Below are positions 46,175-49,579 of a DNA stretch of 64,000 nt, in pieces. Source of the DNA: Flavobacterium sp. N2038 (lineage in GTDB: Bacteria; Bacteroidota; Bacteroidia; Flavobacteriales; Flavobacteriaceae); contig NZ_CP110001.1 in assembly GCF_025947185.1 (NCBI RefSeq), positions 4,526,001-4,590,000 on the forward strand, in the 5' to 3' direction. The translations under genes were made by a program, and so were the position numbers. The number at the start of each line of letters is the position of its first letter. The first letter of the stretch is position 1. The notes below the pieces were generated by a model. It saw only the letters and a list, made by a program, of their open reading frames with translations, had not been told where the DNA came from and searched no databases.

Positions 46175-46206
46175 AAAAAGCCGATGGATTTCTCCATCAG
46201 CTTTTT
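46175..46206. terminator. Terminator downstream of the first small basic protein gene
   Basis: AAAAAGC-C-GATGGA / TCCATC-A-GCTTTTT, a long stem with one internal mismatch and TTTC loop. On the minus strand it ends in T. A second hairpin without T run (ACAACATAG / CTATGTTGT, 46239-46270) sits right after the stop codon. Confidence 0.7.
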
Positions 46207-46271: not shown

Positions 46272-46457
46272 TTATTTTTGAGCTTTTGCAGCTTCTGGCT
46301 TAACAGCCTCTGTTTTTTTAGCTTTTTTATCTGCTTTTTTGTCTTTTTTAGGAGCTTTAGCTTCTTTTACCGGAGTAGTTTGTGCTGGAGTTGTTTGAGC
46401 ATTTACCATTGCAGTTGTTCCTAGAACCGCCACTGCTAACATTACTAATTTTCTCAT
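46272..46457 (-). CDS. Small secreted Lys/Ala/Pro-rich protein (Asr-like in composition), paralogue 1
   Basis: 61 residues. Signal peptide MRKLVMLAVAVLGTTAMVNA, then a disordered basic tail with TTPAQTTPVKEAKAPKKDKK and further Lys/Ala repeats, no cysteine or aromatic residue after the signal. It shares the start M(R/K)(K/N)L...AVLGT(T/S)AMV.A and the P(V/A)KE.K pattern with two proteins at 48.8-49.2 kb. The promoter at 46502-46509 has a direct repeat also found before paralogue 3. Composition resembles the enterobacterial acid-shock protein Asr; homology is not claimed. Function unknown. Confidence 0.75.
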   Translation of the reverse strand: MRKLVMLAVAVLGTTAMVNAQTTPAQTTPVKEAKAPKKDKKADKKAKKTEAVKPEAAKAQK

Positions 46458-46501: not shown

Positions 46502-46538
46502 CAAAGATAGAATCAGTAAATGAAGATAAAATGAAGAT
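46502..46538 (-). promoter_or_regulatory. Promoter and 11-bp-period direct repeat of paralogue 1
   Basis: The -7 element TATCTTTG is the complement of 46502-46509. Ten bp further upstream, + strand ATGAAG occurs at 46520-46525 and again at 46531-46536 (11-bp period), overlapping the -33 region. The same arrangement stands at 49287-49321. Confidence 0.65.
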
Positions 46539-46563
46539 AAAACCTATCTCAGAAAATTAACTT

Positions 46564-47901
46564 TTAATTATGTTTTGGCGCCTCAGGAAGCAATAACATA
46601 AACACAGTGCCTTCGTTTAAAACGGAAGTGACTTTTATTTCTATATGATGAAAAGAACCAATACTCTCAGCAATCGCAAGTCCCAAGCCCTGACCATCCT
46701 GATCTGAACTGATACGGGTAAACCGGTTAAATATTTTTTCAAGTTGAGATTCACTCAATCCAACGCCTGTATCCGAAATAGAAACAAAATACCTTTCATC
46801 TGCAAAACCATCCGCAACTGTAATTGTACCATTTGGTTTATTGTATTTTATCGCATTGGTCACCAAATTATAAAACAAAATATGAATCAGCGTTTTATTC
46901 CCCGTAAAACTATAATGATGCTGCATATTGTTCAAAAACCGTATTTCCCTATCCTCTATTCTATCCTGTAAATCTTCCTGCAGTTCATTTACTATTTCAG
47001 AAAAATCAATAGCTTCGTTTGCTTCATATTGATTGTTTTCAATTCTGGAAATCAGTAACAAATTATTAATTATCTTCTTCAACATATCTAATGTTTTTAA
47101 CGAACCTGCGATTTTATCAAAAGCATTATCATCTAAAGAATCATTCTGCAGTAAATTCTCGAATTTATTTTTTAGCAAAGCAATTGGCGTCAGCAATTCA
47201 TGAGAAACATTTGAAATAAATTGCTTTTCTTTTTTGAAAAGCTCAGCAATTCGATCCATCATTTGATTTAAAACCAGATCGAGCTCACGAAAATCTCTCG
47301 ATTTTGCATTAATCGGCGTATGATCAAAGGCTTCTGGCTCATTGACTCGCCTTATTTTGGTATCAATAATTTTATAAAATGGCTTAAGAAGATATTCAAT
47401 GTAAACCGTATCGGCCAGAAAAGTAACTAACAGAATAACCACCAAAACTATAATAATAAAAAACCTGATGATAAAGGTAAGATCATTTACTTCACTAAGA
47501 CTACTGCCTATTTCTAGTTGATAATCTTCTCCTTCATAGGTAAAATGATATTGCAGAATTCTATATTCGTTTTCCTCCCCCTCTATCGTTCGATATTCAT
47601 TGCTAAAAGTTGTCTTTTTTTGCTTGGGTTTGACAGGCATTCTCGAAAGTACAAGAAATTCGCTGTGCAAGGTAGAAAACTGCGAATATGTTTCGGTCGA
47701 ATCATCAGAGTTCTCGATAAAATCATTAATTTCATTTTTATCCAGATGATCAATAAATTTTTTCTTTTTTTCAATAAGGCCATTATTAATATGCCTGTAG
47801 ACTACATTTTCTACCAAAATAGGAAGCATTAACCATAAAATCAAAATCACCAACAATCTTGTCAGTGCATTAAAAATGGCTAATTGATGTTTTATTTTCA
47901 C
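46564..47901 (-). CDS. Two-component sensor histidine kinase
   Basis: 445 residues starting at GTG (47901); no ATG is placed before the first membrane helix. Membrane helix about 15-32, a periplasmic sensor region of about 110 residues with many charged residues, second helix about 143-165, HAMP-like linker, HisKA with FISNVSHELLTP (phosphorylated His234), and HATPase with N box (HILFYNLVTNAIKYN), G1 (ISDTGVGLSE), F box and G2 (GQGLGLAIAES). It should phosphorylate the response regulator encoded 10 bp upstream. The signal is unknown. Confidence 0.93.
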   Translation of the reverse strand: MKIKHQLAIFNALTRLLVILILWLMLPILVENVVYRHINNGLIEKKKKFIDHLDKNEINDFIENSDDSTETYSQFSTLHSEFLVLSRMPVKPKQKKTTFSNEYRTIEGEENEYRILQYHFTYEGEDYQLEIGSSLSEVNDLTFIIRFFIIIVLVVILLVTFLADTVYIEYLLKPFYKIIDTKIRRVNEPEAFDHTPINAKSRDFRELDLVLNQMMDRIAELFKKEKQFISNVSHELLTPIALLKNKFENLLQNDSLDDNAFDKIAGSLKTLDMLKKIINNLLLISRIENNQYEANEAIDFSEIVNELQEDLQDRIEDREIRFLNNMQHHYSFTGNKTLIHILFYNLVTNAIKYNKPNGTITVADGFADERYFVSISDTGVGLSESQLEKIFNRFTRISSDQDGQGLGLAIAESIGSFHHIEIKVTSVLNEGTVFMLLLPEAPKHN

Positions 47902-47911
47902 AGAAATTTAT

Positions 47912-48586
47912 TTACTCGTTAATACGATATCCCACGTTTCTAACGGTTTCAAACCAATCTATTGAAGTGTGTTTATCTAATTTTTTTCGAAGGTTTCGAA
48001 CATGCACATCAATAAAGTTTGAATCTGAATTCACCTCCAGGATATCTCCCCAAATATGTTCTGTTAATTGTAATCGGGTAATAACTCTGTTTTTATTTAA
48101 AACCAGATATTGAAAAATATCAAATTCTTTTTTAGTCAGATTGATCGGGATTCCATCATAACTCACTTTATAATCCTGAAGCTGCAACAAAAAACCATTA
48201 ACACTTAAACTATTCACCGTAAAGCCATGAATCCTGCGTATTACAGCAAACAATCTCGCGCTCAGCTCTGTAAGCGCAAAAGGTTTAGTCAAATAATCAT
48301 CGGCTCCTAAATGCAGGCCATTTATTCTATCGTCTAATTCTCCTCTGGCTGTAAGTACGATTACTGCCATTTTTGACTGCGTTTTTCGAACCGTTTGAAG
48401 CACTTCAAATCCATCTCCGTCCGGCAAACCTAAATCCAGCAACATAGCATCATAATCATTGCTTCCAAATTCTTCCAAGGCATCTTCGCAGGTATTAGCA
48501 ATCTTACAGATATACCCCGCATTACAAAGAAAATCGTAGATTTCTACTGCCAGTTCTTTATTATCCTCTACAATCAAAATATTCAT
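47912..48586 (-). CDS. OmpR/PhoB-family response regulator
   Basis: 224 residues from the ATG at 48586 (MNILIVEDNKEL); the longer frame adds seven unlikely residues. Receiver domain with acidic pocket E7/D8, phosphoacceptor Asp51 (LLDLGLPDGDG), T in VLTARGE and K in LTKPFAL. The C-terminal winged-helix DNA-binding domain (about 130-224) has the recognition helix NFIDVHVRNLRKKL. This family binds direct repeats with an 11-bp period. Such repeats stand in front of the small-protein genes on both sides of this operon, making them its best candidate targets. Confidence 0.94.
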   Translation of the reverse strand: MNILIVEDNKELAVEIYDFLCNAGYICKIANTCEDALEEFGSNDYDAMLLDLGLPDGDGFEVLQTVRKTQSKMAVIVLTARGELDDRINGLHLGADDYLTKPFALTELSARLFAVIRRIHGFTVNSLSVNGFLLQLQDYKVSYDGIPINLTKKEFDIFQYLVLNKNRVITRLQLTEHIWGDILEVNSDSNFIDVHVRNLRKKLDKHTSIDWFETVRNVGYRINE

Positions 48587-48663
48587 AAGAAATACATTTA
48601 AGTACAATTAAAATTAATCAATTATCAAAAGCTTCGATATCTATTATTAAAAAATTAACGAAT

Positions 48664-48695
48664 AAAAAAAGCTGACAAATTACTTCATCAGCTTT
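48664..48695 (-). terminator. Terminator of the paralogue 3-2 operon
   Basis: AAAGCTGA / TCAGCTTT stem with a 12-nt loop. On the minus strand it is followed by a run of seven T. Lies between the small-protein gene at 48773 and the response regulator. Confidence 0.75.
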
Positions 48696-48772
48696 ATTCA
48701 ACCGCATTCTCATAATCATTATTCCTGTTTTGTCTCCCTTACAATGCTTTGAAAACAAAACAAAAACAAACA

Positions 48773-49006
48773 CTATTTTTTCACACTTGCTGTTGCCGGA
48801 GTTTCAGTTGCAGCCGATTTCGCTTTTTTAGAAGCTTTGTGTTTAGAATGTTTTGCAGTTTTAGATTCTTTTGCCGGAGCAGCTTTGTCATCTTGTACAG
48901 GTGTAGATTTAACCTCTTTTGCAGGTGTTTTTTTAATTGGAGCAGGAGCTGCAATCATTACACTTGTACCTAAAACTGCTGCTAATACTAAAAATAAATT
49001 TTTCAT
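48773..49006 (-). CDS. Small secreted Lys/Ala/Pro-rich protein, paralogue 2
   Basis: 77 residues: signal peptide MKNLFLVLAAVLGTSVMIAA, then a basic tail with KKTPAKEVKSTP, AKESKTAKHSKHKASKKAK. Clearly related to the product of the next gene upstream (49048-49245), from which it is separated by 41 bp without a terminator, so both are probably on one mRNA. No Cys or folded domain visible. Confidence 0.75.
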   Translation of the reverse strand: MKNLFLVLAAVLGTSVMIAAPAPIKKTPAKEVKSTPVQDDKAAPAKESKTAKHSKHKASKKAKSAATETPATASVKK

Positions 49007-49047
49007 GATTTCTTAATTTTAAATTACTTTTTCAATAGTTTCTTTGC

Positions 49048-49245
49048 TTATTTTTTCACTTTTGCTGTTTCAGCTTTTGGAGCTTCACTTTTTTCTGATT
49101 TTGTTTTTTTATCAGATTTGTGTTTAGGATGTTTTGTTGCTTTAACTTCTTTTGCAGGAGTTGCTTTTGGATCTTTTGCAGGAAATGCATGAACCATTGC
49201 ACTTGTACCTAAAACTGCTACTAATAACATCAATAAATTTCTCAT
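49048..49245 (-). CDS. Small secreted Lys/Ala/Pro-rich protein, paralogue 3
   Basis: 65 residues: signal peptide MRNLLMLLVAVLGTSAMVHA, then FPAKDPKATPAKEVKATKHP and a Lys/Ser/Glu-rich end. Shares VAVLGT(S/T)AMV and PAKEVK.TKH.KHK with the paralogues. First gene of a two-gene operon; the promoter carries the same direct repeat as paralogue 1. Confidence 0.75.
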   Translation of the reverse strand: MRNLLMLLVAVLGTSAMVHAFPAKDPKATPAKEVKATKHPKHKSDKKTKSEKSEAPKAETAKVKK

Positions 49246-49286
49246 GATTTCTAAAATTTTAAATTAATACCTTTTATTTTACAGAT

Positions 49287-49321
49287 CAAAATTACCTCTG
49301 TAACATGAAGCCAAAATGAAG
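49287..49321 (-). promoter_or_regulatory. Promoter and 11-bp-period direct repeat of paralogues 3 and 2
   Basis: The -7 element TAATTTTG is the complement of 49287-49294. Ten bp upstream, + strand ATGAAG occurs at 49305-49310 and at 49316-49321 (11-bp period), exactly the geometry found at 46502-46536. Confidence 0.65.
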
Positions 49322-49374: not shown

Positions 49375-49493
49375 ACCATATAAGTAATATAAGTTCATTT
49401 TAGCAGAGGCGCACAGCAGTGCGTCTCCACATTTTAATATGTAACGATTAGTTGCGTCCTATATATTAAATGAACTTATATTACTTATATGGT
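49375..49493. mobile_element. MITE-like palindromic element, 119 bp, 26-bp perfect terminal inverted repeats
   Basis: 49375-49400 and 49468-49493 are perfect inverted copies (ACCATATAAGTAATATAAGT then TCATTT). The 67-bp centre contains a second hairpin GAGGCGCAC-AGCA-GTGCGTCTC with one G-T mismatch. No coding capacity. No clear target-site duplication is visible at the edges, so it may be a REP/MITE-type element or a large structured RNA element. Confidence 0.65.
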
Positions 49494-49579
49494 AAAAAAA
49501 ATTTATGGTGGAAAAAAAATCCTGTTAGTCTAATTTTTGAGAACCCAATTGTTTATTTTTACAGACTAATATTTTTAAT

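Follow-up and report, generated by a model that had tools for sequence, protein, structure and literature searches.

The 64,000-bp stretch of Flavobacterium sp. N2038 DNA analyzed here (contig NZ_CP110001.1, positions 4,526,001 to 4,590,000; the window) contains a five-gene cassette in which a two-component system is flanked by two copies of a tandem-repeat box, CTTCAT-N5-CTTCAT-N10-TAnnTTTG, each placed before a gene for a small, lysine-rich protein with the look of a secreted peptide. The box, its spacing, its conservation and its co-occurrence with the regulator were established computationally, and the interpretation we find on balance likely is that an OmpR-family regulator close to PmrA reads this PmrA-box-like repeat and switches on the secreted lysine-rich peptides.

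Two operator-promoter sites and their conservation

Read on the coding (minus) strand, both sites conform to the same formula: operator-promoter A, CTTCATTTTGGCTTCAT-N10-TAATTTTG, occupies 49287..49321, and operator-promoter C, CTTCATTTTATCTTCAT-N10-TATCTTTG, occupies 46502..46536 and begins 28 bp past the stop codon of the kinase gene. On the plus strand each appears as a reversed -7 box, 10 bp, ATGAAG, 5 bp and ATGAAG, and direct reading of the window places both sites exactly where a preliminary description of this DNA had located them, in the arrangement it gave. That description also called the two operators identical, which holds for the half-sites and the spacings but not for the 5-bp spacers (TTTAT and TTTGG). 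The window holds two copies of the bare repeat, compared with 0.01 expected from window shuffles, and these are the only two exact copies of CTTCAT-N5-CTTCAT in the whole genome of 4,673,854 bp; one-mismatch copies are at background (36, versus 35 matches to the reversed pattern when up to one mismatch is allowed).

TAnnTTTG is the flavobacterial sigma-A -7 box, at positions -12 to -5 (PMC9723704), so the repeat would span about -39 to -23, where a -33 element would otherwise lie. Of 80 orthologous boxes, only 41 contain a TTG in that region, a scarcity that suits an activator-dependent promoter. The regulator quite likely activates rather than represses.

The genus was sampled with 150 Flavobacterium genomes, our own included. 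The regulator has an orthologue (E <= 1e-60) in 40 of them. Exactly these 40 contain the full motif, for which 9-11 bp were permitted ahead of the -7 box, and the remaining 110 lack it; a reversed control pattern has no match in any of the 150. By contig and position, 72 of the 73 full sites lie beside the regulator. This search of the genome and its relatives, proposed as a check in the preliminary description, thus came out in favor of the association, and the adjacent regulator very likely is the one that pairs with the box.

Orthologous loci were compared in 39 sampled genomes, the window and a named record, L001, which may duplicate a species, giving 41 in total. The box preceding the gene that follows the kinase matches exactly in all 41, with N10 always 10 bp, and an upstream repeat whose half-sites match fully or carry a single T to C change is present in 37, the four without it being L143, L146, L149 and L175. 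Loss of the repeat at orthologous promoters had been set beforehand as the result that would count against the idea, and the repeat is instead retained at these frequencies. Two loci have two upstream repeats, making 39, and 37 of these lie 10 bp from the -7 box. Altogether the loci hold 74 full boxes, of which 41 are downstream ones and 33 upstream; the gene behind them encodes a small basic protein in 70 cases (29 of the 33 upstream), a PepSY-like protein beside the regulator in two and the regulator itself in two, the last four boxes all being upstream ones. Across 16 divergent loci, in which the regulator is less than 88% identical, the downstream promoter is 100% identical at its half-sites, TA and TTTG, against 80% for the 5-bp spacer, 51% for N10, 54% for the 20 bp after the site, 45% for the 20 bp before it and 66% for the prior 20 bp, near the end of the kinase gene. 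The upstream set was picked by the motif itself, so that its half-site identity is partly by construction, while the downstream set lost no locus.

The two-component system and the lysine-rich peptides

On the minus strand the cassette runs box A, gene A, gene B, a hairpin, the response regulator, the histidine kinase, box C, gene C and a second hairpin, and it sits between polA and a metallophosphoesterase gene; polA was not found in the stretches of L145 and L147, nor the phosphoesterase gene in those of L144 and L145. The response regulator (47912..48586, minus strand, ATG at 48586) combines a receiver with an OmpR/PhoB-type winged helix, both over the Pfam cut-offs (PF00072, 89 bits; PF00486, 80 bits), and its best NCBIfam model is the PmrA equivalog at 183.6 bits, below the cut-off of 330. 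The membrane histidine kinase (46564..47901, minus strand, GTG start) has HisKA and HATPase domains, two hydrophobic segments and an acidic periplasmic domain of about 110 aa. Its best NCBIfam model is the PorY family NF052314 (261.5 bits, cut-off 350), and it scores 130.4 bits against PmrB (cut-off 314). With regulator and kinase both under the model cut-offs, neither is a PmrA or a PorY member by those models.

The recognition-helix region, SDSNFIDVHVRNLR, is invariant across the 41 regulator orthologues and differs in the 10 other regulators inspected among the 79 other loci of the best 80 matches; neither this box nor CTTAAT-like variants of it are found in the loci of those 10. OmpR-family regulators commonly use tandem repeats with an 11-bp period, and the picture drawn in the preliminary description, of an OmpR/PhoB-type regulator, an 11-bp direct repeat over the -35/-33 region and a compact regulon of secreted basic peptides, fits the domains, the conservation and the co-occurrence found here. 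Its further statement that the promoter of the regulator lacks the repeat is true of the window but not of every orthologous locus: in two of the 41 (L148 and L150) a full box additionally begins 152 bp before the regulator ATG, and in two more (L144 and L145, from genomes G065 and G110) a full box stands before a PepSY-like gene that immediately precedes the regulator gene.

The reading frames of the window hold three small basic paralogues, where two had been counted. Gene A (49048..49245, minus strand) encodes 65 aa with a signal peptide and a mature part that is 33% Lys with a net charge of about +9. Gene B (48773..49006, minus strand; 77 aa) follows 41 bp behind gene A without a box of its own, and the two are probably co-transcribed as one operon behind box A. 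Gene C (46272..46457, minus strand; 61 aa) lies behind box C. The product of C is 59% identical to that of A, and that of B is 63% identical to A over 37 residues. Terminator-like hairpins on the minus strand occupy the interval between gene B and the regulator gene (48668..48695) and the sequence past gene C (46175..46206); a perfect-stem hairpin with GCTGA recurs in the former interval in at least 16 of the 41 loci, in a strict scan that took the first match only.

A sweep for frames whose product begins with a hydrophobic segment and exceeds 13% Lys, with the cleavage site set by a simple A-x-A rule, yielded 86 small frames from the 41 loci, with a mature median of 44 residues, a net charge of +8 (range 5-14) and 31% Lys; pooled, they contain 21% Ala and no Cys, Trp or Tyr (to three decimals). 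Judged by eye, their length and sequence vary freely apart from the signal peptide and a short KEVKA core. Direct reading finds a small basic gene behind the kinase in all 41 loci, a figure that sequence searching with the peptides (E <= 1e-4) undercounts, at 34 of the 40 regulator-bearing genomes plus G137. None of ten peptides tried (three from the window and seven orthologues) reaches the cut-off of any family model. The colistin-stress family NF051864, whose reference gene shows a logFC of 6.4 in a colistin multi-omics study (PMC5319971), was considered and set aside, since the match (E 0.34, gene B only) is too weak to use.

Between box A and polA, the window also contains a near-perfect inverted repeat (49376-49494; span 119 bp, arms of about 26-28 bp, ACCATATAAGTAATATAAGTTCATTT) with a DNA fold z of -9.8, which resembles a MITE-like or fold-back element. 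Similar arms recur in the corresponding position, some 45-60 bp ahead of the box, in several close relatives with variable loops. Arms of at least 20, with one mismatch allowed, were found in 12 of 39 scanned loci, although the longest arm in L157 is a different sequence, and the arms of the window repeat were not seen in divergent species among the loci scanned.

Distribution of the cassette and boxes at other genes

For 30 of the 110 regulator-less genomes we examined polA together with 1.5 kb upstream. The phosphoesterase gene lies within that distance of polA in 20 of the 30, separated by 125-329 bp in 18 and by 1,000 bp in L300, with no figure for L297; none of the 30 stretches contains a match to the regulator or the kinase, and even the best box-like site on the expected strand has at least 4 mismatches in 18. 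G137, a further genome that lacks the regulator, has a single isolated look-alike of the small genes (E 3.8e-5), and the 250 bp upstream of it contain no box (best 8 of 18 mismatches). Among 397 genomes of the family the regulator (E <= 1e-60) was found in two, both Flavobacterium (1 of 237 genera), in a scan that scored seven candidates per genome and may miss diverged orthologues. The best 80 matches of a contig-wide scan include a single clear orthologue, that of L001 (F. tagetis) at 92%, and the others are 41% identical or less.

Outside the regulator locus, the 150 genomes contain one full site, a perfect box that begins 68 bp before mprF in G094 (L210:333-2957). The product of this gene exceeds the Pfam cut-offs for PF09924 (LPG_synthase_C, 190 bits) and PF03706 (TM, 69 bits) and, at 579 bits, falls just under the NCBIfam MprF cut-off of 600. 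The PepSY-like gene is a weaker candidate member of the regulon. In L144 and L145 the order behind the box is PepSY-like gene, regulator, kinase, and a homologue is present in 28 of the 40 regulator-bearing genomes (that of L217 scores 24 bits against the PepSY_like model, cut-off 28.3). Seventeen of the 28 promoters, including the two regulator-linked ones, show at most 3 of 12 half-site mismatches beside a TAnnTTTR box; among the unlinked promoters such a repeat occurs in 15 of 26, often with CTTAAT or ATTCAT half-sites. With the remaining 11 of 28 promoters failing, that of our own genome among them, we rejected the gene as a core member.

Among the matches listed, sites with two mismatches yielded no further convincing regulon member in our own genome, where three of four were inspected: one stands before an FAD-oxidoreductase-like gene (a guess from sequence) and two are antisense inside reading frames. 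In the corresponding scan across the 40 genomes, the per-genome counts exceed the reversed control partly through known sites. Three other repeats were recorded. In L226 (G006:C11:20507-20541), CTTCAT-N5-ATTCAT-N10-TAnnTTTG precedes a kdsA-like gene, a name guessed from sequence and checked in L226 only, and near-identical strings, whose second half-site is not CTTCAT, occur in several other regulator-bearing genomes; the site might be a weak target connected with LPS, or simply a promoter conserved in the ordinary way. The string CTTCATCTAATCTTCAT lies 115 bp upstream of a gene whose 126-aa product looks exported in L213 and L216 (G006 and G108), with no -7 box at 10 bp, and also occurs in G057 and G063, the downstream gene having been checked in L213 and L216 only. 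In L222 and L223 (G101 and G008) a degenerate repeat, ATTCAT-N5-CTTCAT, is found about 195 bp upstream of a gene that encodes a membrane protein of 915-931 aa, and in G052, G102 and G120 the gene for a similar protein adjoins mprF.

Proposed mechanism and alternative explanations

The closest known parallel to the operator is the PmrA box, which comprises a pair of half-sites of the CTTAAG/CTTAAT type, separated by 5 bp, on which two regulator domains bind head-to-tail, with His193, His195, Asn196 and Glu199 as likely specificity residues (PMC3973317). The cassette box is likewise built of two tandem hexamers 5 bp apart, and CTTCAT is one base off CTTAAT, but its letters depart from the CTTAAG-N5-XTTAAT given there; of the specificity residues the first and third (H and N) are kept in our reading of the alignment, whereas the second and fourth are R and K. 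The layout of the box is therefore PmrA-like and its letters are not. The comparison with PmrAB (BasRS) as a whole is similarly mixed. The cassette regulator is an OmpR-family protein with PmrA as its best model, and the G094 box links the motif to mprF, another surface-charge gene; in contrast, the kinase is closer to PorY, the outputs are exported lysine-rich peptides, and none of the 74 full boxes precedes a lipid A modification gene. The resemblance to the PorY/PorX system of Bacteroidota is confined to the sub-threshold PorY score of the kinase; PorX, unlike the cassette regulator, is not known as a winged-helix OmpR type.

A second parallel is the dbfQRS system of Vibrio cholerae, which is described as having a PepSY protein, DbfQ, that binds the sensor DbfS (Kd 30 nM), activation by outer-membrane stress and a kinase gene implicated in polymyxin B resistance (PMC12714742). 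Two of the 41 cassette loci resemble it in having a gene for a small exported PepSY-like protein beside regulator and kinase, as well as the envelope theme, and autoregulation, suggested for DbfQRS in the same text, is possible for the cassette. The other 39 loci, in contrast, adjoin lysine-rich peptide genes and have the PepSY-like homologue elsewhere or none that was found.

We propose that the acidic periplasmic domain of the kinase would sense a change in the envelope, most likely polycation or outer-membrane stress, and that the kinase would then phosphorylate the response regulator. Two regulator molecules would bind head-to-tail on the two CTTCAT half-sites with their 11-bp period, at about -39 to -23, and, standing in for a good -33 element, would recruit RNA polymerase to the TAnnTTTG box. 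The output would be the three lysine-rich peptides, exported and probably disordered, with a mature length of about 44 aa and a net charge of about +8; they may coat the anionic surface of the envelope or neutralize it. The signal is read from the likeness to PmrA, the box at mprF and the two loci that run PepSY-like gene, regulator, kinase, and an envelope or polycation signal combined with an electrostatic-shield role for the peptides is put forward tentatively, the stress signal by analogy with PmrAB and DbfQRS. More speculative still, and rather unlikely as it stands, is a PmrAB-type cationic-stress circuit that would export its own polycations rather than modify lipid A, its peptides covering anionic envelope sites against cationic peptides or metals, with mprF (lysyl-lipid) recruited in one species as the enzymatic equivalent.

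A shield or buffer of the envelope is the role we favor; two rivals stay in contention, namely acid protection of the Asr kind and feedback to the sensor. In enterobacteria, RstBA/PhoBR regulate Asr, the acid shock protein, and provide a precedent for two-component control of a small exported Lys/Ala-rich protein of the kind inferred for the cassette. An Asr-like kinase would sense low pH, and the basic peptides would buffer or protect periplasmic proteins. This is doubtful, though the lysine/alanine-rich composition of the peptides and the UniRef name 'Acid-shock protein' on some of their homologues (5 among the matches listed) speak for it, as does a weak match of one gene-B-type orthologue to NF033636 (16.5 bits, cut-off 50). 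That same peptide, however, scores higher with a model for an HHHH-motif protein (21.3 bits of 40), and neither the three window peptides nor the other six of the seven orthologues tried match Asr, so that no cassette peptide reaches the cut-off.

Alternatively, the basic peptides, or the PepSY-like protein in the manner of DbfQ, might bind the acidic sensor domain and set its kinase/phosphatase balance rather than act as effectors. The sensor domain is acidic in 40 of the 41 loci, and the gene order behind the box in L144 and L145 is that of dbfQRS (PMC12714742). Yet the small peptides are not PepSY proteins, their free variation outside the signal peptide and the KEVKA core is unlike that of a specific partner, and the several gene copies suggest output rather than control; we consider such feedback a rather improbable account of the peptides.

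Returning to the pairing of regulator and box itself, several observations weigh against it. The genome-level co-occurrence is partly co-inheritance of one locus, the box being part of the cassette, and for that reason boxes on other genes matter. There the record is uneven: mprF was rejected as a general member, with a box in one of nine cases and best scores of 6-8 of 18 mismatches at the other eight promoters, and the PepSY-like promoter of our own genome is degenerate (5 of 12 mismatches). Among the 39 upstream repeats, L147 has 11 bp before the -7 box and L161 a broken -7 box, and the PmrA specificity residues are, as noted, kept in part. Finally, G060, which lacks the regulator and has polA beside the phosphoesterase gene with no cassette there, carries CTTCAT-N5-ATTCAT, with one mismatch, properly placed before a PepSY-like gene (L276, L288; G060:C24). 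It was the sole one-mismatch repeat in a survey of 69 of the 110 regulator-less genomes that gave 12 PepSY-like homologues, 11 of them alignable and 7 with an anchoring box.

The G060 site may be either a vestige or a similar site readable by another regulator. The latter possibility favors a different OmpR-family regulator, encoded elsewhere, as the reader of the box, the adjacent pair controlling something else; 11-bp tandem repeats, usual in this family, would allow it. With the full motif in 40 of 40 genomes that have the regulator and 0 of 110 that do not, and with 72 of 73 sites flanking it, we regard such a reader as distinctly unlikely. Chance or plain inheritance of a duplicated promoter without regulatory meaning, suggested by the paralogy of genes A and C, whose promoters could share ancestry, is already contradicted by half-sites and -7 letters that stay invariant amid diverged flanks and N10 in 41 loci and by the same box before regulator, PepSY-like and mprF genes, and can be dismissed.

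The circuit is apparently undescribed, given that the peptides tried fall below every family cut-off and that, among the papers listed by searches of the open PMC literature, none was recognized as describing it. To our knowledge, polycation responses have been little described in this phylum. The cassette offers a small, experimentally accessible Flavobacterium regulon that comprises a sensor, a regulator and an operator definable letter by letter, and its outputs are secreted lysine-rich peptides, a class whose role is poorly understood; if they do act as a shield, they would represent a protein-based counterpart of lipid A modification.

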